A stretch of DNA of 64,000 bases from positions 620,001 through 684,000 of the forward strand of contig JANLFQ010000001.1 of NCBI GenBank assembly GCA_024653355.1, read 5' to 3'. Numbering within the stretch: position 1 is the stretch's first letter; the number at the start of each line of letters is the position of its first letter. The notes under the pieces were generated by a model. The model did no database searches, was not told the origin of the DNA, and was given only the letters and a program-made list of their open reading frames with translations. Made by a program: the position numbers and the translations under genes. Shown one piece after another: positions 2,896 through 50,554 of this stretch. The DNA comes from a candidate division WOR-3 bacterium (GTDB lineage Bacteria > Hydrothermota > Tepidihabitantia > Tepidihabitantales > Tepidihabitantaceae).

Positions 2896-2923
2896 TTGAC
2901 AGTCTTATTCTTAGTGCTACCAT
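2896..2923 (+). promoter_or_regulatory. Promoter of the MFS gene (leaderless type)
   Basis: TTGACA at 2896-2901, a 16-bp spacer and TACCAT at 2918-2923. The GTG start at 2930 begins 6 nt after the -10 box, where transcription should start, so the mRNA is predicted to have no 5' leader. No Shine-Dalgarno is seen before the GTG. Confidence 0.6.
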
Positions 2924-2929
2924 CCAGTA

Positions 2930-4210
2930 GTGCCCAACCGATATGTCGTGCTCCTGCGCAACAAAAACTTTCTTTTTTTAACCCTTGCCGGAGCGATGTC
3001 ACAGTTAGGCGACCGTCTTTCCCATATGCTGCTAATTACGCTTATTGGCGTTGCCGCACCCGGGAAACTACTCGCCTATTCGGGCGGCTCTCTTACCTTC
3101 GTGTTCCCCACCTTAATACTCTCGCCGATTGCCGGTGTCTTAGTTGACCACTGGGACAAACGCAAAACCATCAGCCGCACCCACTTCATCCAGACAACAA
3201 TTCTGCTCTTAACCCCGTTTGCCATGAAACTTACCCATAACTTCACCCCCTTCTGGGTCGCACTGACTTTATTCTTTGGACTGGATATCTTCAACAACAC
3301 CGCCAATCCCGCGCTCCTGCCCAATCTGGTCGCCTCGGACAAATTACTCCTCGCCAATTCCGTGAGCCTCGCCTTCGCACGCATCGCCACAGTTTTAGGA
3401 ATGGTAATTGGGGGATTTCTGATTAAATGGGCAGGCTGGAACAATGCGCTATTTATCGACGCTTCCTGTCATCTTATTGCCGGTTTTTTAATCCTTAACA
3501 TCATAACCACCAGAACAACGGCAGTCGCATATTCTGCGCCCCAACCTCGTGCCAGTATCCTCTTGAGCTTGATCAATGCCTTAAAACAGTTTTTTAGTGA
3601 CCTAGTAGAACTCATCCGTTTGGTTTTACACAACCGAATTGTTGCCTTTGTCCTCGCTTCTATCGTCATTTCCACTTTCATCTCTGCCGTCTCTTACACA
3701 ATTCTCATCTACCTTGTACAGCAGGTTTTGAATATGGGCACGGCCGGAGTTGGTATCTTTGCCGGGATTTTGGCAATCGGTATGATTGCCGGCGCGGCGG
3801 TGATGGGACTTTTACCACCGAATATCAACCGTCCTCTTGTCATCGTCACGATCACAATTTTATACGGCTTACTTTTTTTCATTGGTAACTGGCTCATAAC
3901 CGTCTGGTTTATGATTGTTGTCGCACTCATCGCCGGCGTTGCCTTTTCCTGGTTGGGGATTGTTCAAAGTACCCTCTTACAGGAGGAAGTGGCACCAACC
4001 ATCCGGGGCCGAATTTTCTCCACGCGCGAATTCGTCACCAACAGCACCTTCCTCATCACCACCGTCGTCATCGGCATCCTCGGTGACTTTACATCCTACC
4101 GCATCGCCCTTCTTGCCATTGGCATCGCTTTAATTGTTCTGGGAAGCGCCGGGTTTTTCTGGGTCCATAATGGACTAATTCCGGCCCGCCGATTAAACCC
4201 GGACGATTAG
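2930..4210 (+). CDS. Major facilitator superfamily transporter
   Basis: A 426-residue integral membrane protein with about twelve hydrophobic segments and a basic cytoplasmic loop (DHWDKRKT near residue 72), the usual MFS loop 2-3 signature. The N-terminal part ([10 protein letters not shown]) resembles the MFS_3/enterobactin-exporter and macrolide-efflux branch of drug or metabolite exporters. The substrate cannot be read from sequence. The GTG start is supported by a promoter ending 6 nt upstream and by the absence of a Shine-Dalgarno. The gene stands alone: rnfB lies upstream behind its own stop, and the 3' end overlaps the convergent panC by 18 bp. Confidence 0.85.
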
Positions 4211-5035
4211 ATTGTCGATCAACCTCGCTTTACCAAAATAAACTGCCAGCGCAATAAGTATTTCATTTTTAATTAATTGTATTGGTTTTAAGTAATCTGT
4301 ATCAACAATTTCAATATAATCAATTCTCCCTGACGAGGAGTTCTGGATTATACGGCGCATTGCCCGTTTGACCTTTCGAGCATCCCGTTCCCCATCCTTT
4401 ATCAGCTGCTCAGCATGGCGCAGTGCTTTATAGAGCACCACCGCCTGTTGCCGTTCATCAGGAGTTAAATAGGAGTTACGGGAACTCATAGCTAACCCAT
4501 CAGGTTCACGCACCGTGGGCACAACGACAATCTCAATATCAAAGTTTAAATCCCGCACCATCCTCTTAATGACAAAAGCCTGCTGGGCGTCTTTCTGCCC
4601 GAACACCGCAATGTGGGGCTTTACGATATTAAAAAGTTTGGCAACAACCGTGGCCACACCGCGAAAATGACCGGGCCGGGACTTGCCACAGAGATGCTGA
4701 GTCAACCCTTCAACCTCAACATAAGTTGAGTAGTTTTCCGGATACATCTCGTGAACATCGGGATAAAATATCACATCAACCCCGATTTCGCGCAGCAATT
4801 TCCGGTCGCGCGCAAAATCGCGCGGGTAGCGTTGGTAATCTTCCTTGGGACCAAACTGCATCGGATTGACAAAAATAGATACCACCACCCCATCACACCG
4901 CTGCTGTGCTACCCGCACCAGTTCCAGATGCCCTTGATGCAGGGCTCCCATCGTCGGCACAAATCCCAGTTTTCCCCTTGCCCGCATCTGCGTGGCAAGT
5001 CGTTGCATCTCCCTTATCGTTCTAACGACTTTCAT
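4193..5035 (-). CDS. panC: Pantothenate synthetase PanC
   Basis: Joins pantoate and beta-alanine with ATP to give pantothenate, the last step of vitamin B5 synthesis. At 280 residues from the chosen ATG it has the normal family length. An upstream in-frame ATG would add 19 residues inside panB and is not supported by the family. Visible motifs are [10 protein letters not shown] (nucleotide-binding HxGH), FVNPMQFGP, the [16 protein letters not shown] stretch and SSRNSYL near residue 180. The start lies 14 bp inside the end of panB, so translation is coupled. It is the last gene of folK-dNK-panB-panC. Confidence 0.96.
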
Positions 5036-5846
5036 CGGTGTAAAACGAGTGCTCGGGACCGGGAAATTTCCCCTGGCGCACCTCGGCAACATATTCCTGA
5101 ACCGCCTGCCGCGTCATCCGATTTAGTTCTGCATAACGCTTTACGAATTTGTACGGCTCTTCTTCAAACATCCCGAGCATATCCTGCAGTACCAGTATCT
5201 GACCATCACATTCAGGACCAGCGCCAATTCCGATTACCGGAATCTGTAGCGCCTTTGTTACTTTTGATGCTGCCTCGGCCGGGACTTTTTCCAGAATGAT
5301 GGCAAAGCATCCTGCCGCTGCCAGCGCCTGGGCATCCGTTAGCAATTTCTCTTGTTCTTCAGGTCGCCGAGCCTGCAGCCGATAACCACCTAACTTATGG
5401 ACCGATTGCGGCGTAAGCCCAAGATGCCCCATCACCGGTATTCCATAATCAACCAAACGCCGCACCGTTTCCAGAACCGGCCCGGCACCTTCCAGTTTCA
5501 CCGCTTCGGCACCAGCCTTAAGCAAACGCCCGGCATTCTCAATCGCCTGTTCAAGTGATACCTGATAAGACAAGAAAGGCATATCACTCACAACCAGTGC
5601 CCGTTTCACACCGCTCGCAACCGCTCGGGTGTGATACACCATCTCATCCATACCAATACCGATGGTTGTTTTCATCCCGTAGACCACATTTGCAACCGAA
5701 TCCCCGACCAGAATTATATCAACCCCCGCTTCGTCTAAAATTCGAGCAAATGGATAATCGTAGGCGGTCAAACAGACGATTTTCTCCCCGCGCATCTTTT
5801 TTTTCATTACTCGCAGGGTAGTAACTTTATCAATCGGGGTCGCCAT
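5022..5846 (-). CDS. panB: 3-methyl-2-oxobutanoate hydroxymethyltransferase PanB
   Basis: Transfers a hydroxymethyl group from methylenetetrahydrofolate to ketoisovalerate, giving ketopantoate. At 274 residues it is of standard length, with a (beta/alpha)8 barrel pattern. Family motifs are present: [53 protein letters not shown] and [20 protein letters not shown]. The start has a good ribosome site (AAAGGAG, 9 nt upstream). It sits 13 bp after the deoxynucleoside kinase gene and overlaps panC by 14 bp. Grouping with folK makes sense because the PanB cosubstrate is a folate. Confidence 0.97.
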
Positions 5847-5859
5847 CTATTTAACTCCT

Positions 5860-6531
5860 TTAACGTTTCCGACTCCGGGGCGAATAAAACTTCCTCCCTC
5901 GGTCGTGCTCAACAATCGCCCGAAACAGCCCCTCGAAATCCTCCGGATTGTTCACGAAATTAAGCCGGTCGGTATTGACGATTAGAACGGGTGCCTCTTC
6001 GTAATGGAGAAAAAAAGAGTTGTAAAGGTTGCTCAAATTGTTGAGATATTCAGGCTCGATATTTGCCTCAAAACTGCGTCCCCTTTGCCGGATTCGTGCC
6101 AGAAGAACATCAACCTGGGCTTGCAGATAAACAACCAAATCCGGCTTCGGGATATCATTCTTTACCAGTTCATAAATCCGATAGTAAAGCGCCAATTCGG
6201 GTTCGTTGAGATTAAGTGTCGCAAAAATACGGTCTTTATCGAAAAGATAGTCACTTACCACCGCCGGTTCGGGAATTAGTTCTCCTGCCACCATGATTAT
6301 CCTGCTCTGAAAAATCTCCCGCAACTGTCGATGCCGGGAAAGGAGAAAAAACAGCTGGGTTTGGAATGCGTAACCGCGGATATCACGGTAGAACTTTTCT
6401 AAAAATGGATTTTCTTCGACCACTTCTTGCACCAGCCTTGCCGACAAACGCCGGGCAAGTAATTCCGCCAACGCCGTTTTCCCAACACCGATTGGTCCCT
6501 CAACCGCAATATATTTCAACCGTTGTTCCAC
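5860..6531 (-). CDS. Deoxynucleoside kinase (dGK/dCK family)
   Basis: A 223-residue salvage kinase that phosphorylates a deoxynucleoside with ATP. The P-loop GPIGVGKTA is at residues 13-21, the VEENPFLEKFY substrate motif follows, then SDYLFDKDRIFA (the position of the DRS-type motif) and the arginine-rich lid RQRGRSFE near residue 150. The family includes deoxyguanosine, deoxyadenosine and deoxycytidine kinases; specificity cannot be read from these motifs. Its first 16 bp overlap folK, a pairing seen in many genomes, so it is translated from the folK transcript. Confidence 0.9.
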   Translation of the reverse strand: MEQRLKYIAVEGPIGVGKTALAELLARRLSARLVQEVVEENPFLEKFYRDIRGYAFQTQLFFLLSRHRQLREIFQSRIIMVAGELIPEPAVVSDYLFDKDRIFATLNLNEPELALYYRIYELVKNDIPKPDLVVYLQAQVDVLLARIRQRGRSFEANIEPEYLNNLSNLYNSFFLHYEEAPVLIVNTDRLNFVNNPEDFEGLFRAIVEHDRGRKFYSPRSRKR

Positions 6532-7001
6532 TTTCTTACCCCTTTAAGAGAAATCCCGTTCAACATCTCCTGTACCGTCATCCCCAGTATTGGATGACGC
6601 AACTCTGGTGCCAGTTCGGCAAGCGGCACTAGCACAAACGCCCGCGCGGCAAGCCGGGGATGCGGTACAATCAGCCCAGGCGCGGAAAAAACCTCATCAC
6701 CATAAAAAAGGATGTCAATATCAATCGTCCGCGGTTCCTTTTCAACGCCGTCGTGCCGCACGCGACCCAATTTTTTTTCAATCTCTTGCACTGAGTCAAA
6801 AAGTTGCCAAAGAGCACAATCGGTCCACAACCTTACCACGCCATTAAGAAAAAGGGGCGACCCAGGCATGTCTATCGGCTCCGTTTCATACCAGGACGAA
6901 CGTTCCAACGGCCCTAACTTAAGCAGTTCGACCAACGCCCGTAAAAGATTAACCTCCCGGTCGCCGAGATTTGTTCCCAGACTCAAGAATACTTCCTTCA
7001 C
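6516..7001 (-). CDS. folK: Hydroxymethyldihydropterin pyrophosphokinase FolK
   Basis: Transfers pyrophosphate from ATP to 6-hydroxymethyl-7,8-dihydropterin in folate synthesis. At 161 residues it matches the family. Motifs are LSLGTNLGDRE at the N-terminus, then PRTIDIDILFYGDE and VPHPRLAARAFVLVPLAEL. The start is GTG at 7001. A TTGACA-N16-TACTCT promoter ends 7 nt before it, so the transcript is predicted to be leaderless; there is no Shine-Dalgarno. It is the first gene of folK-dNK-panB-panC. Confidence 0.96.
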   Translation of the reverse strand: MKEVFLSLGTNLGDREVNLLRALVELLKLGPLERSSWYETEPIDMPGSPLFLNGVVRLWTDCALWQLFDSVQEIEKKLGRVRHDGVEKEPRTIDIDILFYGDEVFSAPGLIVPHPRLAARAFVLVPLAELAPELRHPILGMTVQEMLNGISLKGVRKWNNG

Positions 7002-7008
7002 TAAAATA

Positions 7009-7036
7009 AGAGTAGAGCAATCCCGGAAACTGTCAA
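7009..7036 (-). promoter_or_regulatory. Promoter of folK operon (leaderless type)
   Basis: On the minus strand, TTGACA lies at 7036-7031, followed by a 16-bp spacer and TACTCT at 7014-7009. The GTG of folK begins 7 nt later. The -35 box directly abuts the stop codon of csp at 7037. The -10 is weak, but the same TACTCT occurs with the same spacing before glyA. Confidence 0.5.
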
Positions 7037-7264: not shown

Positions 7265-7307
7265 AAAGCCCCTTTCACTGCATTTTAGGAAAAAATCAAG
7301 TAAAAGA

Positions 7308-7335: not shown

Positions 7336-7395
7336 GCGTTTCATCACTCTGCCCTGCCAATACACCACGCCTTGGTATTTTGCCTGGCTTTCGTA

Positions 7396-7423
7396 TTGAC
7401 ACCCTGTTCCTTTCTCCTATAAT
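7396..7423 (+). promoter_or_regulatory. Consensus promoter of nnr (leaderless type)
   Basis: A perfect TTGACA at 7396-7401 and a perfect TATAAT at 7418-7423, separated by 16 bp. The ATG at 7430 begins 6 nt after the -10 box and should be the first transcribed base. This is one of the two clearest cases in the window. Confidence 0.8.
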
Positions 7424-7429
7424 TTTCCT

Positions 7430-8974
7430 ATGATTCCTCTTATCCCGGGTTCATTAATGAAAGAAATCGATCGGAAAGCGATTGAAAACTGGGGGATAAG
7501 TGGATTGGTGTTAATGGAAAACGCGGGCCGGGCGGTCGTCGACTTTATTGAAGAAGAAGTAGGAAAGGTCAAGGGGAAAAAGTTCGTCGTTGTTTGTGGT
7601 AAGGGCAACAATGGCGGTGACGGTTTTGTCATAACCCGCCATCTGCTCAATCGGGACGCAAGGGTCGATTGCATCCTTTTAGGAGAACGGACACGATTAA
7701 AAGGTGATGCCCGCACCAACGCCGAAATTTTACGCCAAGCCGGTATCCCTATTCGAGAAACAACCCATCCGGATGAAATATCTTCAATCATCAGTACCGC
7801 CCAGTTTATCGTTGATGCCATATTTGGAACCGGGCTCTCTGCACCCCCAACCGATATCTTTGCCCAAACAATTCAACTTATTAATGAAAGCGCCGCTTAT
7901 GTAATAAGTGTTGACCTTCCTTCCGGTCTTGATGCCGATACGGGAAAGGTCTTCGGTACTGCGGTAAAAGCCAATCTTACGGTGACAATGGGAGCACCAA
8001 AGTACGGGCTGGTTCTATATCCGGGGAAAATTTTTACCGGTAAATTACGCATTGCTGATATTGGAATTCCCAAAACCCTAATTGAGCAACACGCCGATAC
8101 CTTTTTAGTAACCGCAACCTCGGCCCGGCAACACCTGCCCCCACGGCGTCCTGATGGCCATAAAGGAACATTTGGCACCTGTTTAGTTATTGCCGGAGCA
8201 CGTGGCTACTCGGGTGCCGCCTGTCTCACCGCAATGGCTGCAGTGCGCGCGGGCGCGGGATTGGTGCGTCTCGCCTTCCCCAGAAGCCTTGCTCCGGTAA
8301 TCGAAGCCCAAATCCTTGAACCTGTTAAACACCCTCTTCCGGAGACCGCTGATGAGACGCTCAGTCCCGAAGCCGCTAACACAATCCTTGAACTTGCCGC
8401 TGGTGCCACCAGCATCGCAATCGGTCCGGGAATTACCACCCAATCCCAGACCAAAACTTTAATCCGGGAAATCCTGCCCCGTCTCAGCAGACCGGTAGTT
8501 CTTGACGCCGATGGCATCAACAACCTTGTCGGTGCCGAAGAGTTAATCCCGCAATGCTCCGCACCAATTATTCTTACCCCTCACCCTGGTGAACTCAGCC
8601 GATTAATCGGAATTCCGCCGGATGAAATCAATACCAATCGAATAGAAATCGCCCGTACTACCGCTAAGCGGTTCAATTGCGTACTCGTTTTGAAAGGCGC
8701 TCCCACCGTTACTGCAACACCGCAAGGTCGGGTGTTTGTCAACCCAACTGGAAACTCCGGCTTGGGCTCGGGTGGCACGGGCGATATTCTCACCGGGTTG
8801 ATTGCTGGATTACTGGCTCAAGGCGCCTCACCTCTTGACGCTGCCCTTACCGGTGTTTTCTTACACGGCAGGGCCGCGGACCTCGCGGTTCAAGAACTTT
8901 CCGAATACTCCCTTTGCGCCCGGGACCTTTTACAATTTCTTCCTCGTGCCTTTACCGAACTTCTCTCTTGTTGA
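7430..8974 (+). CDS. nnr: Bifunctional NAD(P)HX epimerase/dehydratase
   Basis: Repairs hydrated NADH and NADPH. The N-terminal half (about 1-215) is the YjeF_N epimerase: LMENAGRAV, VCGKGNNGGDGFVITRHL and VDAIFGTGL are visible. The C-terminal half (about 225-514) is the ADP-dependent dehydratase, with PDGHKGTFGT, VLDADGIN, LTPHPGELSRL and the catalytic-region GSGGTGDILTGLIAG. At 514 residues it matches the usual NnrE-NnrD fusion. The ATG follows a consensus promoter by 6 nt and has no Shine-Dalgarno. The stop overlaps the next gene by one base (TGATG). Confidence 0.95.
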   Translation: MIPLIPGSLMKEIDRKAIENWGISGLVLMENAGRAVVDFIEEEVGKVKGKKFVVVCGKGNNGGDGFVITRHLLNRDARVDCILLGERTRLKGDARTNAEILRQAGIPIRETTHPDEISSIISTAQFIVDAIFGTGLSAPPTDIFAQTIQLINESAAYVISVDLPSGLDADTGKVFGTAVKANLTVTMGAPKYGLVLYPGKIFTGKLRIADIGIPKTLIEQHADTFLVTATSARQHLPPRRPDGHKGTFGTCLVIAGARGYSGAACLTAMAAVRAGAGLVRLAFPRSLAPVIEAQILEPVKHPLPETADETLSPEAANTILELAAGATSIAIGPGITTQSQTKTLIREILPRLSRPVVLDADGINNLVGAEELIPQCSAPIILTPHPGELSRLIGIPPDEINTNRIEIARTTAKRFNCVLVLKGAPTVTATPQGRVFVNPTGNSGLGSGGTGDILTGLIAGLLAQGASPLDAALTGVFLHGRAADLAVQELSEYSLCARDLLQFLPRAFTELLSC

Positions 8975-11087: not shown

Positions 11088-13505
11088 TTAATCTTCAACC
11101 AGGGCGACATCGACCACCGCATCGCCTTTTTCCACCGCCATCACCTTCACCCCGGTTGTTGCCCGACCACACTTTCGGATTTCAGAACACTTCACCCGGA
11201 TTACAATCCCTTGCCTCGATGTAACGATTATTTCCGATGTTTCGCTTACCGCCTTGGCGCAGGCAAGGCGCCCTGATTTTTCCACCGGCTTTGCGGCAAT
11301 CACACCTTTACCACCGCGTTTCTGGGTAGGGAACAATTCGAAATCGGTACGTTTACCAAACCCGTTATCAAATATCGTTAACAGCGACCGACCGGCGGCA
11401 CAAACTACCGCCCCAATAACCTCATCGCCTTTTCCTAATTTGATTCCCCGGACCCCAGCCGCATTCCTTCCCATCTCCCGAACATCGGTTTCCTTGAACT
11501 TTATACCCATACCATTTCTCGTCACGAGTAGAATCTCATCATTTCCGCAAGTCAAAAGGGTAGCAATCAACGCATCCTTATCGTCTACTGTCATCGCAAT
11601 AATACCTTTCCGCCGCGGATTAGAGAATGCCTCAAGACTTGTGCGTTTAACGATTCCCTGGCGCGTGACGAAGAAAACATACCGGTCGGCAGAAAATTCT
11701 CGCACCGCCACATAGGAAGTTGTCACTTCACCCTTCTCCATCTCAACTAAATTGGCAATTGAACGCCCTTTGGAAGCATAAGAACCCTCGGGAATCTCAT
11801 ACACCTTCTGCCAGTAACACCTTCCCCGGTCGGTAAAGAACATCATATAGTCGTGGGTTGAGGCGATAAACAACCCTTCAACAAAATCCTCCTCTGCCAC
11901 CGGAACACCAGTTCTTCCTTGACCGCCCCGTCCCTGACGACGGTAAACGCTTACCGGCATCCGTTTGATGTACCCCCGATGCGTGACGGTCACCACCATA
12001 TCCTCTTCTTTAATTAAATCTTCAATAGAAACATCGGCCGGTTTTTCCGCAAGAATTTCGGTGCGTCGCTCATCGCCGAACTTCTGTTTTAACTCCAGCA
12101 ACTCCTGCCGGATTTCACCCATCATCATCTTCTTGGAAGCCAAAAGACTCTTCAACCGGGCAATCTCTTTAATCAACTCCTTATACTCGGCGTCGATTTT
12201 CTCTCGCTCCAGTCCGGTGAGCCGCGACAACCGCATTTCGAGAATCGCGTCTGCCTGACGCTGGGTAAGTTTGAACCTATCCATCAAACCTTTACGCGCC
12301 GTCTCAACATCTTTAGAACGCTTGATAAGTTCAATAACCGCATCGATACTCTTCAGGGCAATCTTCAACCCTTCAAGGATATGTGCTCGTTCCTCGGCCC
12401 TTGCCAGTTCAAATTTAGTTCGCCTGGTAACAACCTCTAACCGAAATTCGAGAAACTTCTCAAGTAGCCCCTTCAAATTCAAAACCTTGGGCTCGCCGTT
12501 GACCAGTACCAAAAGAATTGCCCCAAAACTTGACTCCAGCGGTGTCCACTTAAACAGTTGATTCAACACAACCTCTTTGGGCGTCTCTTTCTTCAACTCG
12601 AGGACGATTCTCATCCCCTCCCGGTCGGACTCATCGCGCAGGTCAGCAACGCCCTGAATCTTCTTCTCGCGCACCAGCTCGGCAATGCGCTCTACCAGCG
12701 CTGACTTATTAACCTGATAAGGAATTTCGGTAATCACCAGTCGGTCGCGCCCCGCCTTTACCTCTTCGAATACAACCTTACCGCGCACGATAAAACTTCC
12801 CCGGCCTGTTTCATAAGTCTGCTTTATTCCGTCCAGACCAACAACCGTTCCCCCGGTAGGGAAGTCCGGACCTTTTATCCAGCGCATCAACTCACTCACC
12901 GTGATATCGGGATTGTCAATCAGGGCAACCAGTCCATCAATTAACTCGCCTAAATTGTGCGGCGGGATACTCGTCGCCATTCCAACCGCAATGCCGGTTG
13001 CACCGTTAGCTAAAAGATTGGGAAATGCTGCCGGCAGGACCACCGGCTCTTTTAATCTTTCATCAAAATTGGGTTGAAAGTCAACCGTATCTTTATCCAA
13101 ATCCCGGAGAAGTTCCATCGCCAGCGGCGCCAGTCGGGCTTCGGTATAGCGATAGGCAGCCGCGGCATCGCCATCAATCGAACCAAAATTCCCCTGCCCC
13201 TGGACGAGCGGATAACGCAACGAAAAATCCTGTGCCATTCGCACCAGCGCATCGTAAACCGCCGCATCACCATGGGGATGATACTTACCGAGAACATCTC
13301 CCACCACCGCCGCCGACTTACGGAATGGGCGATTGGGAAACAGCCCCATCTCCTGCATCGTCCAGAGAATCCGGCGCTGCACCGGTTTCAAACCATCACG
13401 AACATCAGGCAGCGCCCGGGCAACAATAACCGACATTGCGTAGTCCAGAAAGGACTTACGCACCTCATCTTCGATATATACCGGGATTACCGAATTGTCA
13501 TTCAC
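11088..13505 (-). CDS. gyrA: DNA gyrase subunit A
   Basis: Cuts and rejoins DNA to introduce negative supercoils together with GyrB. I start it at GTG 13505 (805 residues, [14 protein letters not shown]). A GTG six codons upstream is possible but falls inside the promoter: a -10 box ends 7 nt before 13505. The catalytic Tyr is in AYRYTEARL (residue 120). The C-terminal pinwheel carries the GyrA box QKRGGKG near residue 730, which separates it from ParC. At the position of E. coli Ser83 this protein has Ala (HGDAAVYD), a natural variant associated with reduced fluoroquinolone sensitivity in other species. Confidence 0.97.
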
Positions 13506-13512
13506 GCCTTGA

Positions 13513-13540
13513 AATATACCCACTCTAACACTAAAGTCAA
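13513..13540 (-). promoter_or_regulatory. Promoter of gyrA (leaderless type)
   Basis: On the minus strand, TTGACT at 13540-13535, 16-bp spacer, TATATT at 13518-13513. The GTG at 13505 begins 7 nt after the -10 box. This fixes the gyrA start and rules out the upstream in-frame GTG at 13523, which lies between -35 and -10. Confidence 0.65.
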
Positions 13541-14312: not shown

Positions 14313-15520
14313 CTCTTGCCCTGCGCCTGAAGGATATCAGCCGCATACTCCCACAACTGCCGGGGAGAGAGTTCCAAAGCCCTAATTGACGCCGCATCGA
14401 TTGTCTGCAAAACACCGATGGTTGTTGCCACCCGGTAGCGTTTGCGTGCCATAATTCGCCTGCCCCGCAGGCCGCTGCGGCTCTCCATTATCAGTTTTCT
14501 GTTACCTCTCAACAACCGATTTATCTCCTCGCCCTCGAGTTCTATCAAAGCCAGCCGCCCCGGCTCGGAAAGTGTCGACATTAGCTTCAACCGGGTAATT
14601 GTTCCCGGTAAGATTGTGTCCCGGACAAAATTAGAACTGTCATAAATAAAAAGGTCAACCGCGCGTAACCCCAGATAACCGTCAACTATCGCCCGACTTA
14701 ACACCCAGGGTGAAATTTTGACCCTTGTCTCAATAACCGGCAACGCGCCAATGGAATCAAGCATTATCCGCAACGAATCTACCGCTCGCGCCACTTTGGG
14801 TTGTGGTTCACCTGCTTCAAGAGAAACAACCTCTTTTTTGACATTTTGAACCTTACCATTGACAAAAACAAAATCATAACGCAAAACGCTCTCATCCGGC
14901 GCGTCTAAAATTACATCAAAGCCCGAAACTGCTCCTGAATCTAACACCAGGACCGCGGTCAAATCGGCTTTATTTTTGAGCAAGGTCAATAACTTTTGTC
15001 CGGCATAACCCGGAGAGACAAATTTCAACCCTTTAAGGCGCAAAAGCACGTTAACCGAGTCAAGAAGTAACCCACTGATTGCTAAATTTATGCCCGCCAC
15101 TTTTTTTATCATCCAGGGATGGACCAGCGGCAAATCAAAACTGTCGGAAAGATTATATCCCAGCACGCGAAATTGTGCCCGGTCTGTCAGTTGCCTTACC
15201 CGCTCAACACCGAACCCCAGCCATCCCGGCGAAAAAAGTATCGCATCTACCCCGGCAAGTGAAAGCAAATCAATATTTGCCTCGCCATCGGTCAAAGGCG
15301 CAAACTTTTCATCAAAGACATCGCCGGCAATCAACCATAAACAGGGTCGTTCCTTTTTTATTCGGGAAACAACCTCACAAAGAAACGGTAACTCTTCGGT
15401 TTTCCAACCACCACTGACGAAGATGGTAAAGTTTTCTACCGTAACAGGTTTTGCCATCCGGGGTGCACAACCAGCAACGACAAAGACGACCCCGATGAGA
15501 CCGAGATATAAAAAACGCAC
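14309..15520 (-). CDS. Lipoprotein, 5'-nucleotidase/metallophosphoesterase-like
   Basis: 403 residues with a lipoprotein signal (hydrophobic stretch 3-16, lipobox VAGC). The N-terminal region has LIAGDVFDEK and a beta/alpha pattern like the metallophosphoesterase half of UshA-type 5'-nucleotidases. The C-terminal region (IELEGEEINRLLRGN) resembles the 5'-nucleotidase substrate-binding domain. Several metal ligands expected at the start of the domain (the DxH motif) are missing, so catalytic activity is doubtful. The start is GTG, 5 nt after a consensus -10 box. It is co-transcribed with the ICMT-like gene. Confidence 0.6.
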   Translation of the reverse strand: MRFLYLGLIGVVFVVAGCAPRMAKPVTVENFTIFVSGGWKTEELPFLCEVVSRIKKERPCLWLIAGDVFDEKFAPLTDGEANIDLLSLAGVDAILFSPGWLGFGVERVRQLTDRAQFRVLGYNLSDSFDLPLVHPWMIKKVAGINLAISGLLLDSVNVLLRLKGLKFVSPGYAGQKLLTLLKNKADLTAVLVLDSGAVSGFDVILDAPDESVLRYDFVFVNGKVQNVKKEVVSLEAGEPQPKVARAVDSLRIMLDSIGALPVIETRVKISPWVLSRAIVDGYLGLRAVDLFIYDSSNFVRDTILPGTITRLKLMSTLSEPGRLALIELEGEEINRLLRGNRKLIMESRSGLRGRRIMARKRYRVATTIGVLQTIDAASIRALELSPRQLWEYAADILQAQGKR

Positions 15521-15525
15521 AGCCG

Positions 15526-15553
15526 ATTATACCCTATCCCTATTTGGTGTCAA
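15526..15553 (-). promoter_or_regulatory. Consensus promoter of the lipoprotein gene (leaderless type)
   Basis: On the minus strand, perfect TTGACA at 15553-15548, 16-bp spacer, perfect TATAAT at 15531-15526. The GTG at 15520 starts 5 nt later, so little or no leader is possible. Confidence 0.75.
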
Positions 15554-26688: not shown

Positions 26689-27465
26689 CTACTCTTCCAC
26701 ATTTTGGGTCTTGTGAGCAAAAACCAGATAAGCAGTATGTGCTACCATTCTGTCTACCGGCCGAATCCCGGTCTCGCGCAAAAATAAACCCCGTTCAAGA
26801 ATCTCTTTTGCCCGAACGCGCACAAACCCTGCCGCTCCCAGTGCCGAATTAAGCCGCCGTAACTGCTCTACGGTCGGCACCAGTGCCGCAAGGGCATAAC
26901 CACTCTTCAAAGCCTGCCGCGCCGGTTTGACGAGAGTCCAAGGTTCAGGCACATCAAGAAAAACCGCATCCACCTCTTTTTGCTGAAAGCCCTGTTCTGC
27001 TGGGTCTAAAACGAAAAATTCACAGACCGCTTCCAGCCCATATCTTGCGACATTCTCCTGCGCGAGGGTGCTAAATTCCGGCCGTCGCTCATACGAATAA
27101 ACCCGCCCCTGCGGCCCAACAAACGAAGCCAGAACCACTGTCAAACCACCGGACCCTGAACCCACTTCAATAACCCGGGCTCCGGGAAATACGAGTGTCT
27201 GCAGCAACATAAAACCCGTGTCTTTGGGATAAACCACCGTCGTTTTTCTCTTTACCTTCAATAGCAGGTCAGCCAGCGTTGGCTTAAGAATATAGAATTT
27301 CGTGCCCAGTTGAGTTTCCACCCAATCGCCATATTCCTTGCCAATTATATCTTTAAATTCCACATTGCCTCGATGGGTTGAAAACTTCCCTTGTTCCTCC
27401 ACGCGGATAAGAAACTTCATATCTTCGGAATGGTAGAGCAAAACAAAATCACCACACCTGATCAT
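26689..27465 (-). CDS. trmI: tRNA (adenine-58-N1)-methyltransferase TrmI
   Basis: 258 residues. The N-terminal beta domain (LLYHSEDMKFLIRV, STHRGNVEFKDIIGKEYGD) and the SAM-binding motif EVGSGSGGLTVVLA with YSYERRPEF define the TrmI family, which makes m1A58 in the T loop of tRNA. The catalytic-region DVPEPW is present. The ATG begins 6 nt after a TACAAT box, so the mRNA is predicted to be leaderless. The downstream uptake genes depend on this promoter. Confidence 0.92.
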   Translation of the reverse strand: MIRCGDFVLLYHSEDMKFLIRVEEQGKFSTHRGNVEFKDIIGKEYGDWVETQLGTKFYILKPTLADLLLKVKRKTTVVYPKDTGFMLLQTLVFPGARVIEVGSGSGGLTVVLASFVGPQGRVYSYERRPEFSTLAQENVARYGLEAVCEFFVLDPAEQGFQQKEVDAVFLDVPEPWTLVKPARQALKSGYALAALVPTVEQLRRLNSALGAAGFVRVRAKEILERGLFLRETGIRPVDRMVAHTAYLVFAHKTQNVEE

Positions 27466-27471
27466 TAGCTG

Positions 27472-27499
27472 ATTGTAAAATTTTGGCTCAACAGGTCAA
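27472..27499 (-). promoter_or_regulatory. Promoter of trmI operon (leaderless type)
   Basis: On the minus strand, TTGACC at 27499-27494, 16-bp spacer, TACAAT at 27477-27472, then 6 nt to the ATG at 27465. It is divergent from the propeller promoter at 27540-27567. Confidence 0.65.
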
Positions 27500-27539: not shown

Positions 27540-27567
27540 TTGACTTTTCTACCTTAGCGAATATCAT
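27540..27567 (+). promoter_or_regulatory. Promoter of NHL-propeller gene (leaderless type)
   Basis: TTGACT at 27540-27545, 16-bp spacer, TATCAT at 27562-27567, then 7 nt to the GTG at 27575. Confidence 0.65.
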
Positions 27568-27574
27568 CCTAATA

Positions 27575-28870
27575 GTGTTTGCAGTATTAACAACTTTACT
27601 ATTTGCCGAAGCAACAACATTGGTCGCACCACCATTTTCCCACACCCTTGGATTCACCCGGGTAAGTAGTTTTTACCTCAATATGTTCCTCGGCAAAGAT
27701 TTTCGGGTTGATAATCCCCAGGGGTTAGCCTGTGCCAAAATCAAAGAAGAGGAAGACACCACCACTTGGCGGGATGATGCCCTGCTGACCCTGTTTGCCG
27801 TAAACTCCAACACCGGGCAAATTGTCTACAACGTCAAACTCGTCCGGCCGGGCATTTTTGGTGCTCAAGGACAGGGTGTAGGTCAATTCAACCACCCCCA
27901 TGGAATCACCTGCAATGAAGACGGTGATGTCTATGTGGCTGACACCGACAACAACCGACTGGTTCGGTTGCGCTACACCGGTGGTAAACTCCATTGGGTG
28001 ACCGTAGTTGATTCAACCTTAAATCACCCTTATGATGTTACGATGGATTCCAAGGGTCGAGTGTTTGTCACCGATACCGACAACGACCAAATCGTCGTTT
28101 ATGCCCCGGACAACAACCGAATCGCCACCTTAACCCCGGGGCTAAAAAAACCGAGCGCGATTGCGATTCTTGACCACCTTGCCCCTTTTAATGAAACCGG
28201 TCTTGATTTACTGGTAGTCGTTGACCATTCAGGCACAACCGTAAATCAGCTGTCAACTTCCGGTGAAATTTTGCGCTCGGTCGATTACCGACGCATCGGA
28301 TTGGATAGCGCTTATTTTGCCTATTGTGCCTTTGACCGCCATGGTAATGTTTATGTAACCGACATGCTAAATTCCCAGATTCACATCTTCGCACCGGGTT
28401 TAAAATACATCGTTTCCTTTGGCCGTACCGCATCAAGTAAATCTGACCAGCCCGTTTTCAATGCACCGCGCGGTATCGCAATTGGTAGGAAATTTGGTCA
28501 ACTGTTTGTCAGTGAAGCCGATGGAGGTCAGTACTATTTAATTGCGCTTGATGGTTACCTCATCGGTTGCTACCCGGAACAGTTCAAAGCCGACAAACCC
28601 GGCACCACCATCGCGCTCTATCTCACTCAACGGGCTGAAATCATCGTTGAAATTAGCGATTCCACAGGCAACATTATTAGAAGCCTTACGCCCCCCTATC
28701 ACCAGGGACCGGGCGAAGTTCTTATCGTGTGGGACGGCAGAGACAACGAAGGTAACATCGTCCCTATAGGTGAATACCATATTAAAACAATTATCCGCCC
28801 CACCTACTCACGCCCGAGGTATACATTAAAAAAAGAGCTTTTCACCCGGGTTGTGCGTCTACCGGGATAA
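27575..28870 (+). CDS. Secreted NHL-repeat propeller with FlgD-like tail
   Basis: 431 residues with a short signal peptide (VLTTLLFAEA). NHL units are clear: FNHPHGITCNEDGDVYVADTDNNRLVRL, LNHPYDVTMDSKGRVFVTDTDNDQIVVY and others with the G-[DRN]-[VI]-[YF]-V-[TA]-D core, probably six blades. After about residue 350, an Ig-like FlgD-type domain reads VWDGRDNEGNIVPIGEYHIK. NHL propellers bind proteins, nucleic acids or sugars; no enzyme motif is seen. The GTG start lies 7 nt after the promoter. It is probably transcribed with the PorV/PorQ-like gene. Confidence 0.8.
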   Translation: MFAVLTTLLFAEATTLVAPPFSHTLGFTRVSSFYLNMFLGKDFRVDNPQGLACAKIKEEEDTTTWRDDALLTLFAVNSNTGQIVYNVKLVRPGIFGAQGQGVGQFNHPHGITCNEDGDVYVADTDNNRLVRLRYTGGKLHWVTVVDSTLNHPYDVTMDSKGRVFVTDTDNDQIVVYAPDNNRIATLTPGLKKPSAIAILDHLAPFNETGLDLLVVVDHSGTTVNQLSTSGEILRSVDYRRIGLDSAYFAYCAFDRHGNVYVTDMLNSQIHIFAPGLKYIVSFGRTASSKSDQPVFNAPRGIAIGRKFGQLFVSEADGGQYYLIALDGYLIGCYPEQFKADKPGTTIALYLTQRAEIIVEISDSTGNIIRSLTPPYHQGPGEVLIVWDGRDNEGNIVPIGEYHIKTIIRPTYSRPRYTLKKELFTRVVRLPG

Positions 28871-33048: not shown

Positions 33049-34463
33049 TATTCAAACTCCAGAATCTTGATTCCGATTTTCTTTACTAATCCCAGCACCT
33101 CTGCCTGGCGGCTCAATTCACCTTCGGCAAGTTTCAAATGCAAGGCACTGGCGGGAAATTCACCAAAAGTAGCATCAACCGGCACCCAGCGGTCAAGATA
33201 AACCTCGTTCCAGGCATGGTAATAAAATGCACCATCCATGTAAACTAAACCGACAACTACTTTTGCGGGAATACCTGCGGCGCGACTTAGTGCAGCGTAA
33301 AGCACTGAATGCTCATTGCAATCACCTTTTAGATTCTCTAAAACATCCAATGCATTAGGCAATGAGGCAACCGCCTCCTTCTTTAGAGAGCGGTGAACCC
33401 AGTTCAAAATTCTTTCTGCCGCTGCCGAGGCATCTTCTACTCCTTTAACAATTTCCCTCGCCTTCTCCTTAATCGGTGCCGCGTCCGCCTGAATTGAAAC
33501 TGAAGGTTGAAGATACTCTGATTCTGAAGTTATCGGCAGTTTCCGCCCAAGAATCGGGGAAGGGGTCACAATCTCCAGACGCAACGGCGACCTCGTCATA
33601 ACCTGTTGATAGGTTCCGTCGAGGTCAAACTCTGCTGTATCAAGCCCGGTAACCTCCATCACTACTCGTCTTACCTTATTCGGCTCAGGAACCACCGTGT
33701 CAACGGGCACCGCAAACAGACGCAGCAGGTCAACAGGATATCCTGACTCTCCCGCTAACGCCTCTTTCTCGCTAACCCGATAAGAGTTCAACCCCATGGG
33801 AGACTCTTCTTTAACGGTCATTCCGTTCGCATCCAGCCAGGTTGTAACTTCGGTTTTTGCCCGCTTAACTTTCACCTTCAATGTCGGGATTGTTCCCCCG
33901 TTTAATTTAATTGATTCAGGACCCAACACCGTAACAGTTGTGGGTAATGTATCCATCACCGTGCCGTCAAATGTCAGATAATTTAAACTCATGCCTGATT
34001 CGTGATTTCCCGTAACCACTATGCGACCAAGCGCTTCGATTGGATAAAGCTGCCGTGTTAATTTGATACGATGCGCACCTTTCACCCCCACTCGCTCCAT
34101 TATCAACCACCCATCCTCAACCCTTCCGTTAGCCTTAAATAAACCGTCTTGCGAACCCAGTTCAAATTGAAAAGAACGCAGGGTCCAATCGGAATTGGTA
34201 ACTACCCGGGAATGAAAATTAACCCGCTGGATTTTGCCCAGCATACCTACTGTCATTCTCATAATGTTGTCAAATTTATACCCGTCTGCGACTGGAACAC
34301 ATCTCGTTACCGCCCAGCCGACCTTCTTCCCCATTAGATATGTCGCCAGCCACACACCATTCGAATCGTTACCCGAATCTGTAAACCCTCTTGCTTTTCT
34401 ATCGGTTTTGCCTCCACAGGCAAAAATTAAAACAAATATTACTCCTATTACTATCTTCTTCAT
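33048..34463 (-). CDS. Lipoprotein with transglutaminase-like domain
   Basis: 471 residues with a lipoprotein signal (lipobox FACG, Cys16). The first 300 residues are beta-rich and unassigned. The C-terminal transglutaminase-like domain carries the full triad: Cys382 in GDCNEHSVLYAAL, His416 in YYHAWNEVY and Asp430 in PVDATFGE. Such domains act as cysteine proteases, amidases or crosslinkers in the cell envelope. The ATG begins 7 nt after a TAGTTT box, so the mRNA is predicted to be leaderless. It is a single-gene unit. Confidence 0.85.
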   Translation of the reverse strand: MKKIVIGVIFVLIFACGGKTDRKARGFTDSGNDSNGVWLATYLMGKKVGWAVTRCVPVADGYKFDNIMRMTVGMLGKIQRVNFHSRVVTNSDWTLRSFQFELGSQDGLFKANGRVEDGWLIMERVGVKGAHRIKLTRQLYPIEALGRIVVTGNHESGMSLNYLTFDGTVMDTLPTTVTVLGPESIKLNGGTIPTLKVKVKRAKTEVTTWLDANGMTVKEESPMGLNSYRVSEKEALAGESGYPVDLLRLFAVPVDTVVPEPNKVRRVVMEVTGLDTAEFDLDGTYQQVMTRSPLRLEIVTPSPILGRKLPITSESEYLQPSVSIQADAAPIKEKAREIVKGVEDASAAAERILNWVHRSLKKEAVASLPNALDVLENLKGDCNEHSVLYAALSRAAGIPAKVVVGLVYMDGAFYYHAWNEVYLDRWVPVDATFGEFPASALHLKLAEGELSRQAEVLGLVKKIGIKILEFE

Positions 34464-34470
34464 CCATTTA

Positions 34471-34498
34471 AAACTAACAAGGAATCATCGTGTGTCAA
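34471..34498 (-). promoter_or_regulatory. Promoter of the transglutaminase lipoprotein (leaderless type)
   Basis: On the minus strand, TTGACA at 34498-34493, 16-bp spacer, TAGTTT at 34476-34471, then 7 nt to the ATG. It is divergent from the tRNA-Leu promoter, with 12 bp between the -35 boxes. Confidence 0.55.
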
Positions 34499-35909: not shown

Positions 35910-35938
35910 TTGACTCCATTTAAAATAGCCGGTATAAT
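35910..35938 (+). promoter_or_regulatory. Promoter of nusA-infB operon
   Basis: TTGACT at 35910-35915, 17-bp spacer, perfect TATAAT at 35933-35938. An ATG lies 7 nt later at 35946, so the transcript probably begins with a small leaderless ORF ahead of nusA. Confidence 0.75.
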
Positions 35939-35945
35939 GCCCATT

Positions 35946-36008
35946 ATGAATTGGTTGACATTTGGAATTGGGACAAACTTAGAAAAGGAGAAAGAAAGAA
36001 AGCGATGA
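35946..36008 (+). CDS. Putative leaderless leader peptide of nusA (20 codons)
   Basis: An ATG placed 7 nt after a consensus -10 box opens a 20-residue frame (MNWLTFGIGTN, then a Lys/Glu/Arg-rich end). Its TGA (36006-36008) overlaps the nusA ATG at 36005 (ATGA), the arrangement typical of coupled translation. It contains the AAAGGAG that would otherwise have to serve nusA at an over-long 14-nt spacing. Support is geometric only; no homologue was checked. Confidence 0.45.
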   Translation: MNWLTFGIGTNLEKEKERKR

Positions 36009-42554: not shown

Positions 42555-42568
42555 CTCATCTCTAAAAA

Positions 42569-44457: not shown

Positions 44458-44485
44458 TTGACTGACAAACATCAATTAATATCAT
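44458..44485 (+). promoter_or_regulatory. Promoter of PK-C-like/HIT genes (leaderless type)
   Basis: TTGACT at 44458-44463, 16-bp spacer, TATCAT at 44480-44485, then 7 nt to the ATG at 44493. A second TTGACT overlaps 5 bp upstream (44453). Confidence 0.65.
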
Positions 44486-44492
44486 TTAGCAG

Positions 44493-45071
44493 ATGAGAGA
44501 ACTGAGTTCCATTCCGATTTATTTTCCCCGTGCCGGTAGCAAAAACACCGCTCAAACCATCGCCCTTGCCCTGAACCGCGCCCTTGAACTCAACATCAAA
44601 CACCTCATCGTCGCCTCCACCACCGGAAAAACCGCCCTCAACTTAATCCGCCAGGCAAAAAAGGGATTTAACATCGTCTGCGTTACCCATCATTCCGGTT
44701 TTGCCCAGCCGGGCAAATCAGAACTTTCTCTAGCAACCGAAGCCCGGCTGAAAGCATCCGGCGTCGCCGTTTTACGAACGACCCATCTCTTTGCTGGAAT
44801 TGACCGCGCCCTGCGCCTCAAATTCGGCGGTGCGGGTCCTGCTGAGGTAGTCGCCAGCGCATACCGTACCCTGGGCGAAGGCGTTAAAGTGGCGATTGAA
44901 ATCTCGGTAATGGCACTTGACGCCGGCCTTGTTCCCTATGGCAAAGACCTCATCAGTATCGCCGGCACCGGTTCGGGCGCCGACACTGCAATCGTTATCC
45001 AGCCTGCTCATTCCAGCCGCTTTTTTGAAACGAAGGTAAGAGAAATCATCTGCAAACCAAGGAATTTTTAG
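44493..45071 (+). CDS. Pyruvate kinase alpha/beta-domain-like protein (COG1751 type)
   Basis: 192 residues resembling the isolated C-terminal domain of pyruvate kinase, without the catalytic barrel. Recognisable parts are HLIVASTTGKTALNLIRQAK, CVTHHSGFAQPG and ISVMALDAGLVPYGKDLISIAGTGSGADTAIVI. Such stand-alone proteins are common in archaea and anaerobes and have no known reaction; the fold binds a phosphorylated ligand in pyruvate kinase. The ATG lies 7 nt after a -10 box and is predicted leaderless. A HIT-protein gene follows by 13 bp. Confidence 0.75.
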   Translation: MRELSSIPIYFPRAGSKNTAQTIALALNRALELNIKHLIVASTTGKTALNLIRQAKKGFNIVCVTHHSGFAQPGKSELSLATEARLKASGVAVLRTTHLFAGIDRALRLKFGGAGPAEVVASAYRTLGEGVKVAIEISVMALDAGLVPYGKDLISIAGTGSGADTAIVIQPAHSSRFFETKVREIICKPRNF

Positions 45072-45522: not shown

Positions 45523-45535
45523 AAGACCCCAGAAA

Positions 45536-48500: not shown

Positions 48501-48713
48501 GGTGCCGGTTCGGTTGTCATACCACACAACATGAACATTACCACCCGTATCGGTTGCCACAGTATGCTGATAACCATAACCCATATATTGAGTTGTTGCG
48601 TCATCGGAAATATTAACCGGGCCCGACCAGCCATCAGTGCCCGCAACAGGAATTCCATTGCTGCTGAAAACCATTGTGATTAAACTCAGCAGCGTGATAA
48701 CTATACCGCTCAT
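45588..48713 (-). CDS. Very large secreted propeller/kelch protein with T9SS type A sorting domain
   Basis: 1041 residues from ATG 48713 (AAGGAGG 6 nt upstream); an ATG ten codons earlier lacks such a site. A signal peptide is followed by seven units of the form VHVVWYDNRTGTNQVFYR (a seven-blade BNR/sialidase-like propeller, about 30-410). Two CARDB/Ig-like domains (about 410-630) come next, then six kelch-like units with a recurrent LKGN-(x)n-FW-YD pattern (about 640-950). The tail (NPTGSQG, FDATGRMVLSQPL, LPSGVYLLKL, RKLVVK) is a type IX sorting domain. It is probably an exported surface adhesin or binding protein. No catalytic Asp-box triad is evident. Confidence 0.85.
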   Translation of the reverse strand: MSGIVITLLSLITMVFSSNGIPVAGTDGWSGPVNISDDATTQYMGYGYQHTVATDTGGNVHVVWYDNRTGTNQVFYRKWSRATGTWGPITQVTNQSVAAYRPAVACDDSGNVHITWYQSTSPNYGIWYKRWNVATGTWGDSVYLYNPGGNYLNYYPSIACRPGGNNVHIVWYGRDASNPTFFRIKHMEYTPGTGWSSVSIVDNFPSDSNIQASVAVDQADSVYVVWRKRVAGYYQVFYRGRSGSGVWRDIEQVSDVNANADMFACAVAVSEDGSTVHVVWNGDVPSSSNDRIFYRAKTGSGWGTTETVSTYNNGNQYDPVVAEVDGIVNVVWRGYTEISPTRFEILYRQKQAGSWGEVMQLTNRAQTGLYYPALWAGEFDDLHIVWYDNSDGDNDVYYIRGELVDAGVSSILSPSGLIIPGTAVTPRVVCRNFGAFNNVDFRLFCFLINPAGNRVYSESLDVANLAPGAETTLVFSDFVVNGAGQWTVRCSTTAVLDKNSTNDVREGTFTVYNTDIEMFQIQAPSGTIDSGAVVTPRARWWNRGDNPADFSAFLKLIDASGTVVYNESVPIIGLAGRRDTIVNFPAYTMGGVPGTWSVRCSTFCSNDTFPDNDVLSADFVVRRIPHWPYGWHEVSQVPLAPSNRGVSDGGWLTQMRVSGTRCLFVLKGNKVGDFYLYDPLADTWHQLKSMPLGADGRPPRRGSVGVAGGDYVYATKGNNTLGFWAYNVELDTWVPLENVPPGSSGKRVKAGTDMVYIKRPHTDTGYVYLLKGYTDEFYRFNTVSGVWEPRAPAPLTATGRRWDRGSWIVYNARPGQNQFYIYAHKSKVHELWKYDVLADTWFSQSLSGMPFIGKLGKTKKCKDGSSGAWYNDAIYALKGGNTCEFWRYDALGDSWVELDTMPSVGSTGRKKRVKGGGDIVLYEDGIFFALKGNKTPELWCYVSADTLFADVPDKSGVMGTVQNEPGSLTIAPNPTGSQGVLFISGTTPGMRVQIFDATGRMVLSQPLGSARATVNLRMLPSGVYLLKLDGEYTVTRKLVVK

Positions 48714-48803
48714 TTTAACCTCCTTACTTTTGGCTGTTTGCAACCCTTAATTTACGGCAATTAAACTGTTAACCGGAAGAAACAGGATGTAACCCGCCGG
48801 TTA

Positions 48804-48832
48804 AATATACGCCAGTTTCTTTTGAATGTCAA
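48804..48832 (-). promoter_or_regulatory. Promoter of T9SS-cargo gene
   Basis: On the minus strand, TTGACA at 48832-48827, 17-bp spacer, TATATT at 48809-48804. The start near 48797 leaves about 84 nt of leader with a Shine-Dalgarno, so this gene is not leaderless. Confidence 0.55.
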
Positions 48833-49196
48833 CTAAATTTTGTATTAAGAATCGTCAAAAAGTCTGTTATTCCCCAAAAAAGTTATGCCCGCACACAGCG
48901 ACAACTCCAGTTTCCATTACCATCCCTGAAACTACTCCGGGGTTGGGTAGGGAAAACAAGGCTCAAACTTATTAACCTGTTGAAAACAAACGCATTATGT
49001 AAAACCGCCCTACCGCTGAAAGTATACTTAAAAGTATACTTAACTCTAAATTATCCGCTACCGGCACAGTAAGTTATGGCTCATTACCCTCTGACTATGA
49101 GATTCAGGTTTGCGCTCAATGTTGCCAGTTCGAAACCAGAAACAGTGCCGAACCTTTTTATCCCCCAACACCCTGTTACCCCAAAACATCTTTTCC
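48833..49196. other. Intergenic region upstream of miaB
   Basis: About 360 bp between divergent promoters. An in-frame extension of miaB back to ATG 49076 is open but has no family resemblance and is interrupted by the miaB promoter. The only distinct element is the tandem palindrome at 49020-49041. Confidence 0.45.
49020..49041. repeat. Tandem 10-bp palindrome
   Basis: AAGTATACTT, a perfect 10-bp palindrome, occurs at 49020-49029 and again at 49032-49041, a period of 12 bp. It may be an operator for an unidentified regulator of miaB or of the divergent cargo gene. Confidence 0.4.
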
Positions 49197-49225
49197 TTGA
49201 CAATCTGTCCTATATGATAGAAAAT
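49197..49225 (+). promoter_or_regulatory. Promoter of miaB operon (leaderless type)
   Basis: TTGACA at 49197-49202, 17-bp spacer, GAAAAT at 49220-49225, then 6 nt to the GTG at 49232. TAGAAA at 49218 with a 15-bp spacer is an alternative -10. The -10 is weaker than in the other cases. Confidence 0.45.
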
Positions 49226-49231
49226 CTACTG

Positions 49232-50554
49232 GTGTCAAAATTCTATTTGCAGGTTTACGGCTGTCAGATGAATCAATACGAAGCCGAATTGGTGCGCCAC
49301 ATACTTAATCAATCGGGATTTAGTGAAACTGATAACGCAGAGGACGCCGATGTCTTCTTAATGGTCACCTGCTCGGTACGCGACCACGCCGAACAAAGAG
49401 CCCTGGGCAGACTGGCAACATTTAAATCCTACAAAAACCGCTCGTCGGAAAAAATCGTCGGCGTTCTCGGTTGTGCTGCCCAGCGCCTAAACGAAAAACT
49501 AATCACCGACTACGGAGCGGATATCGTTGTTGGACCTGACGGTTACCGACACCTTCCCGAACTTATCAACCGCCGAAGAAACGGTGCCCCGCCCCAGTTG
49601 TTTGTGCCGATTAACGACGAGTGCTATCCGGACATTCACCCCCAAATCCGAAATGCCGTTACCGCAAATGTAACAATAATGCGCGGTTGTAACAACTTTT
49701 GTTCATACTGCATCGTCCCTTATGTAAAAGGTCCGGAACGTTCCCGACCGGTGGAAAGCATCGTAAATGAAGTCGAGCAGCTGGTACGCGCCGGAGTAAA
49801 AGAGGTAACGCTTTTGGGCCAGAATGTCCTTGCCTATCAGGACCGGGAAACAAGTTTCACCGAACTGCTGGCAACCGTTTGCACTATTGACGGTATCGAA
49901 CGGGTTCGTTTTCTTACATCTCATCCCCGTGATTTGACGGAAAAAATAATCGACCGGATTGCCCGTTTACCGAAAGTTTGCCCGCAGTTCCACCTCCCAT
50001 TACAGTCGGGTTCCAATCGTATCCTGCAGCTTATGAACCGGGGCTACACCCGCGAGGAGTACATGGAGAAAGTGCAGCTGTTAAGAGATAAAATACCCGA
50101 AGTGTCAATTACCACCGACATCATTGTGGGATTTCCCACCGAGGATGAAGATGATTTTGCTGCCACACTGGAAACTGTCCGGGCGGTCAAATTTGACTTT
50201 GCCTATATGTTCAAATATTCACCCCGGCCCGGAACGCGCGCCGCCGCAATCCAGCCTGCGGTGCCGGAAGCCATAGCCCGGCGTCGCCTTACCGAACTGA
50301 TTAAATTGCAAAACCAGATTACCCGGAATGCCAATCAGGCGCTGGTCGGAAAAACCTGCGAACTGCTGATTGAAGGACCGAGTCCGCGTGGCCAGGGTAG
50401 CCTGGGCAGAACCCGCCAAGGAAAGGTTGTCATCCTTGACGAGGAAATTCCGCCGGGTACTCTTGTCTCAACTATGGTCAAAGCGGTTCGAGGTTGGACG
50501 CCAATCGGTCAGGTGCGCAATACAATACAAGCCCTTGTCACAGGAGGTTGTTAA
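49232..50554 (+). CDS. miaB: tRNA-2-methylthio-N6-isopentenyladenosine synthase MiaB
   Basis: 440 residues from GTG 49232, giving MSKFYLQVYGCQMNQYEAE, the normal N-terminus. Adds methylthio to i6A37 of tRNA. The N-terminal cluster Cys are in YGCQMN (Cys11), VTCSVRD and LGCAAQR. The radical-SAM cluster is CNNFCSYC. The TRAM domain closes the protein (about 375-438). Starting at the upstream ATG (49076) would add 52 residues unlike any MiaB. The stop adjoins lapA, and lapA, lapB and probably mutS belong to the same transcript. Confidence 0.95.
   Translation: MSKFYLQVYGCQMNQYEAELVRHILNQSGFSETDNAEDADVFLMVTCSVRDHAEQRALGRLATFKSYKNRSSEKIVGVLGCAAQRLNEKLITDYGADIVVGPDGYRHLPELINRRRNGAPPQLFVPINDECYPDIHPQIRNAVTANVTIMRGCNNFCSYCIVPYVKGPERSRPVESIVNEVEQLVRAGVKEVTLLGQNVLAYQDRETSFTELLATVCTIDGIERVRFLTSHPRDLTEKIIDRIARLPKVCPQFHLPLQSGSNRILQLMNRGYTREEYMEKVQLLRDKIPEVSITTDIIVGFPTEDEDDFAATLETVRAVKFDFAYMFKYSPRPGTRAAAIQPAVPEAIARRRLTELIKLQNQITRNANQALVGKTCELLIEGPSPRGQGSLGRTRQGKVVILDEEIPPGTLVSTMVKAVRGWTPIGQVRNTIQALVTGGC

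Follow-up and report, generated by a model that had tools for sequence, protein, structure and literature searches.

In this bacterium and its relatives, roughly between a third and a half of the genes that follow a promoter of their own appear, as judged from the sequence, to be transcribed into a message that begins at the start codon and lacks both a leader and a ribosome-binding site. These observations are very probably explained by leaderless mRNA made from sigma-70/sigma-A promoters, with the transcription start at, or within ∼ 3 nt of, an ATG or GTG codon (RTG). In the proposed mechanism, a housekeeping promoter of the sigma-70/sigma-A type would be sited such that transcription sets off at the first base of the ATG or GTG, or within ∼ 3 nt of it, and translation would depend on the RTG at the 5' end, through 70S or IF2-dependent leaderless initiation, and not on the anti-Shine-Dalgarno. 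The genome would be a mixed one, in which many first genes have a leaderless start, and many operon-internal genes and some first genes, such as nusA, are led by a Shine-Dalgarno (SD) sequence. We infer both the position of the transcription start and the 70S, 5'-terminal mode of translation.

Ten promoter-start sites in the window

The window, which is the whole stretch of 64,000 nucleotides that was analysed, contains ten places at which the earlier note had described a TTGAC-type -35 box, a spacer of 16 bp (17 bp once) and a -10 box ending 5-7 nt before an ATG or GTG. Each site was read on its own strand and then scored with the trained start model (LLR; Table 1). All ten sites have a TTGAC -35 and a -10 at d5-7 before an ATG or GTG, as described, with a spacer of 16 bp at nine of them and of 17 bp at 49232, and the boxes at 7430 and 15520 are indeed perfect copies of TTGACA and TATAAT. 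The -10 at 49232 is poor (an alternative, TAGAAA, lies at a spacer of 15), and this site and 34463 (TAGTTT) are the weakest of the ten. Weak individual sites such as these may be chance matches. In the folK ORF, GTG 7001 is the earliest possible start. The ORF at 44493-45071 (+ strand) encodes a stand-alone pyruvate-kinase C-terminal-domain protein (PK_C, 192 aa).

Table 1. Promoters placed directly before start codons in the window; d is the number of nt between the end of the -10 and the start codon, and the last column gives the state of the counterpart in the congener.
Gene or product	Promoter	Strand	-35	Spacer	-10	d	Start	LLR	Congener
MFS transporter gene (2930-4210)	2896..2932	+	TTGACA (2896-2901)	N16	TACCAT (2918-2923)	6	GTG 2930	9.1	promoter spacing identical
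folK (by NCBIfam)	6999..7036	-	TTGACA	N16	TACTCT	7	GTG 7001	7.3	
NAD(P)H-hydrate epimerase/dehydratase	7396..7432	+	TTGACA	N16	TATAAT	6	ATG 7430	11.4	d8
gyrA	13503..13540	-	TTGACT	N16	TATATT	7	GTG 13505		
Protein with weak SoxB/UshA-like match	15518..15553	-	TTGACA	N16	TATAAT	5	GTG 15520	10.7	promoter identical
TrmI-type tRNA methyltransferase	27463..27499	-	TTGACC	N16	TACAAT	6	ATG 27465	9.5	
NHL-repeat / FlgD-Ig protein	27540..27577	+	TTGACT	N16	TATCAT	7	GTG 27575	9.4	promoter same
Transglutaminase-core protein (weak promoter)	34461..34498	-	TTGACA	N16	TAGTTT	7	ATG 34463	6.7	d6
nusA mini-ORF	35910..35948	+	TTGACT	N17	TATAAT	7	ATG 35946		
Stand-alone PK_C-domain protein	44458..44495	+	TTGACT	N16	TATCAT	7	ATG 44493	9.4	
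miaB	49197..49234	+	TTGACA	N17	GAAAAT (poor)	6	GTG 49232	8.1	layout same

When the window was searched with the pattern TTGAC-N15-18-TANNNT-N5-7-RTG, 11 matches were found, compared with a mean of 0.47 and a maximum of 3 in 100 dinucleotide shuffles. Nine of these 11 matches are sites of the earlier note, and the two extra ones lie at 35946, where a 20-codon ORF precedes nusA, and at 42559, where the start codon is out of frame. The site at 49232 is missed by the pattern because its -10 does not fit TANNNT.

The promoters are of the sigma-70 type, with TTGACA and TATAAT hexamers at a spacing of 16-18 bp. The motif learned from the bacterium's own genome is TTGACA / TATAAT with a spacer of 16 bp (66%) or 17 bp (27%), and TTGACN17TATAAT has 47 matches in comparison with none in a reversed control. 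The optimal spacer is 16 bp rather than 17 bp (91% in G072, a more distant member of the class), in leadered and leaderless promoters alike. The 16-bp spacer was therefore rejected as a hallmark of leaderless genes: the spacing claimed for the ten sites holds at nine of them, but leadered promoters of the same genomes share it.

Distance between promoter and start codon

The genome of this bacterium comprises 1.88 Mb in 6 contigs and is compact (∼ 90% coding); 864 kb of it were analysed, together with 552 kb of G072. In a plot, independent of any gene caller, of the distance between TTGAC-N15-18-TANNNT and an RTG that begins a long ORF, the counts rise abruptly at d = 5 and peak at 6-7. The genome-wide peak at 5-7 nt that had been predicted was thus found, and it is specific to ATG and GTG. 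Moreover, among the 234 strong intergenic promoters in the 864 kb, 77 are followed at 5-8 nt by the in-frame RTG of a called gene, compared with 7-11 promoters in each of the other 4-nt bins tested, which covered 13 to 36 nt. The corresponding figure for G072 is 67 of 156 strong intergenic promoters, compared with 5-14 per other bin. A shoulder of ATG starts is visible at d8-12 in the distance plots.

Start classes and operon position

An expectation-maximisation start model with three classes (SD, leaderless and none) was used to sort 725 called genes of the own genome, and placed 332 in the SD class, 169 in the leaderless class (23%, the loose leaderless set) and 224 in neither; these numbers rest on a home-made caller that picks start codons with the promoter in its score, and caller-free counts agree but are smaller. 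At LLR ≥ 6, 126 real genes were called leaderless, compared with none when the upstream sequence was shuffled. When the promoter of the model was moved upstream by 12 or 18 nt, 71-72 genes were still called, 39 of them at LLR ≥ 6. These calls are ordinary leadered promoters, so that the signal is the excess at the start codon and not the raw count. The leaderless counts of the model span d3-12, and a strict set, confined to LLR ≥ 6 and d5-8, comprises 94 of the 725 genes (13%).

An SD motif precedes one of the 94 strict leaderless genes, compared with 262 of the 332 SD-class genes. The leaderless genes are first genes and not operon-internal ones: strict leaderless starts are found in 52 of 148 genes that have a divergent upstream neighbour (35%, and up to 59% loosely), and in 3 of 354 genes (1%) that lie ≤ 20 nt from the upstream gene. 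No upstream start option exists for 58 of the 94 strict leaderless genes, and an in-frame start preceded by an SD within 90 nt downstream is present in two. In the case of MiaB, FolK and GyrA, the protein-family match begins at residues 3-6 of the proposed proteins. With an intact anti-SD on its 16S rRNA and a full-length ribosomal protein S1, the bacterium has the SD pathway alongside the leaderless one. Consistent with the mixed leaderless/leadered genome put forward earlier, 332 SD-class genes stand beside 94 strict leaderless genes among the 725. Leaderless genes were also examined for weaker folding at the mRNA 5' end, and none was seen.

Start codons and the preceding base

The strict leaderless starts of the own genome are 66 ATG, 26 GTG and 2 TTG. 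GTG is over-represented in this set (26 of 94, compared with 54 of 332 SD genes; p 0.016), and such an over-representation among leaderless genes was absent when checked in G072. TTG starts occur in none of 79 leaderless genes of G072 versus 13 of 195 SD genes (p 0.02); in the own genome, the TTG deficit of leaderless genes alone is not significant (p 0.19). In mycobacteria, only ATG and GTG are functional at +1, that is, at the mRNA 5' end (PMC4633059).

GTG starts are confined to d5-8. Of the genes with d5 in the own genome, 15 of 16 have a pyrimidine immediately before the start codon, and in G072 a T occupies this position in 22 of 28; a pyrimidine, or T, is what position -1 of a transcription start usually carries. 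For d6-d8, a purine is often found at -1 in the own genome.

Conservation of promoters and start codons

The congener G111, with a median protein identity of 87%, has orthologs of 40 strict leaderless genes in the part of its genome that was read. Among the 33 of these that are in the same register, identity is 97.5% for the -35 and -10 boxes, 73% for the spacer and 81% for the discriminator. The distance from the -10 to the start codon is unchanged in 36 of the 40 orthologs, and the length of the spacer in all 40.

Of 29 genomes of the class, 25 carry a strong promoter immediately 5' of the gyrA start, in 24 cases at d5-9, with several relatives at d8-9. No SD was found before the gyrA start in those class genomes that have the promoter at the start. 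The N-terminus of gyrA ranges from 11 codons longer to 2 codons shorter, and the promoter shifts with the start codon in these 25 of 29 genomes. By contrast, an SD-like motif precedes the nusA start in most of this clade. From these two examples, gyrA and nusA, it looks as if each gene conserves its own mode of initiation. The gyrA match contains in-frame stop codons in two relatives, G096 and G073, which are draft genomes, and these are possibly assembly or frame errors.

Alternative explanations

Transcription might start 2-5 nt before the start codon, giving messages with ultra-short leaders that are not strictly leaderless. The ATG shoulder at d8-12, the frequent purine at -1 for d6-8 in the own genome and the location of gyrA at d8-9 in several relatives are all in keeping with this, and the shoulder together with the purine suggests that part of the leaderless set may have leaders of 1-4 nt. 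As an account of the whole set it is unlikely, given the sharp onset and maximum at d5-6, the pyrimidine at -1 for d5 and the confinement of GTG to d5-8. In addition, a leader of 1-3 nt has no room for an SD, so that initiation would follow the same leaderless mechanism in any case.

A different possibility is that in a genome as compact as this one the promoters lie near genes merely through the shortness of the intergenic space, with the true starts further downstream and preceded by an SD. Downstream starts of that kind are available in just 2 of 94 genes, however, the family matches of MiaB, FolK and GyrA begin too close to the proposed N-termini, and promoter and start codon shift together across the class, which makes this explanation very improbable. 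Still less credence, indeed almost none, can be given to chance matches to a loose consensus. The ten sites were selected by eye and the -10 boxes at 34463 and 49232 are poor, but chance does not account for 11 matches in the window where 0.47 are expected, for 77 matches against 6 in the whole genome, or for boxes that are 97.5% conserved in the congener.

Distribution across the phylum

The promoter-start pattern was surveyed across the phylum, in 147 genomes. At d5-7 it has 77 matches in the own genome, compared with 6 in the reversed control, and reaches its maximum for the phylum, 263 compared with 9 in the control, in G079, which belongs to another family of the same class. At d15-17 the pattern has 32 matches in the own genome and 108 in G079. 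Canonical promoters number 301 in the own genome (control 52) and 561 in G072 (control 114); after subtraction of the control, an RTG stands at 5-7 nt from ∼ 28% and ∼ 49% of them, respectively, where ∼ 9% would be expected by chance on our own estimate.

The signal runs through most of the 147-genome phylum and is strongest in the own class. It is lacking from named genomes of the FCB group, the counts being near control in 19 named genomes (Zixibacteria, Latescibacterota, KSB1, Cloacimonadota, Bacteroidota, Aerophobetes and unnamed bacteria), and families f22-f23 and most of f21 showed no excess of the promoter itself over control. Tentatively, and with slightly less than even confidence, a leaderless start is proposed to be the prevailing, probably ancestral, mode for the first genes of most of this uncultured FCB-like phylum, in > 100 sampled species, by way of a 16-bp-spaced sigma-70 promoter locked to the start codon; some clades would have lost it along with the canonical promoter.

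Genomes of f21-f23 (G034 and G043, for example) have little or no TTGAC/TANNAT signal above control. In G043, SD motifs are few (32 of 142 genes) and there is no clear -10 near the starts. From these features, the clades concerned would seem to use something else.

Relation to known leaderless systems

No earlier description of leaderless genes in this lineage was found in the literature searched under WOR-3, a presumed name for the lineage, and the earlier note knew of none either. Its statement that they are known for actinobacteria and Deinococcus is correct but incomplete, as Zheng et al. (2011) report leaderless genes also in Acidobacteria, Aquificae and delta-Proteobacteria (PMC3160421). 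The leaderless share given there averages 19% in Actinobacteria and 39% in Deinococcus-Thermus, and one of 37 Bacteroidetes/Chlorobi genomes is counted (PMC3160421). In the StartLink paper (PMC9581028), 21.6% of 4,769 bacterial genomes are cited as predicted leaderless by GeneMarkS-2, and the FCB group is assigned an AT-rich non-canonical RBS. Since leaderless genes are known in several phyla, the mechanism looks to be of a known kind and the novelty to be of lineage only. The form encountered here is an unusually clean full-promoter type with wide conservation.

As in mycobacteria and other Actinobacteria, the genome is a mixed leaderless/SD one with ATG or GTG, and not TTG, at +1, and leaderless genes are a substantial minority (∼ 20-25% there; PMC4633059, PMC9031893, PMC3160421). 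Unlike in Actinobacteria, which are a different phylum, a full TTGAC(A/T) -35 at 16-bp spacing accompanies the -10. The TA-led genes of Deinococcus-Thermus similarly have a Pribnow box just 5' of the start codon; these account for 36-46% of genes (Zheng et al., PMC3160421), and for ∼ 60% in D. deserti (PMC9031893), whereas here the share is ∼ 13% strictly (94 of 725) or 23% loosely (169 of 725), and the -35 boxes are strong. A D. deserti plasmid has only 2 TTGAC/TANNAT matches in 314 kb, too few for it to serve as a control. The leaderless class of GeneMarkS-2, as set out in PMC9581028, is also alike, in that one genome combines an SD model with a promoter-type model directly before many starts.

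Gene starts in this group are likely to be prone to mis-calling by tools that expect an SD, because many true starts would be an ATG or GTG with no ribosome-binding site. The clade is a deep one in which leaderless use is graded, from almost absent to roughly half of the promoters, and it offers a natural series for the gain, retention and loss of leaderless initiation, processes for which Actinobacteria, Deinococcus and archaea have so far been the main subjects.

The mini-ORF upstream of nusA

The mini-ORF at 35946-36008 (+ strand) has 20 codons and a start of the leaderless type, and its stop codon overlaps the nusA start (36005) as ATGA. Its promoter is probably the leadered SD promoter of nusA. 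A general coupling of leaderless mini-ORFs to downstream genes was considered and rejected, as its frequency in the own genome (7 of 15) is not clearly above that at other distances (3-8 of ∼ 25, or 4 of 15 at d9-12). The congener lacks the nusA mini-ORF, as do nearly all of the other relatives that were checked. Among these relatives, L245 has an RTG ORF of 23 codons at d4 before nusA, and L239 has one of 8 codons at d7, both with a sequence and stop offset unlike those of the mini-ORF.
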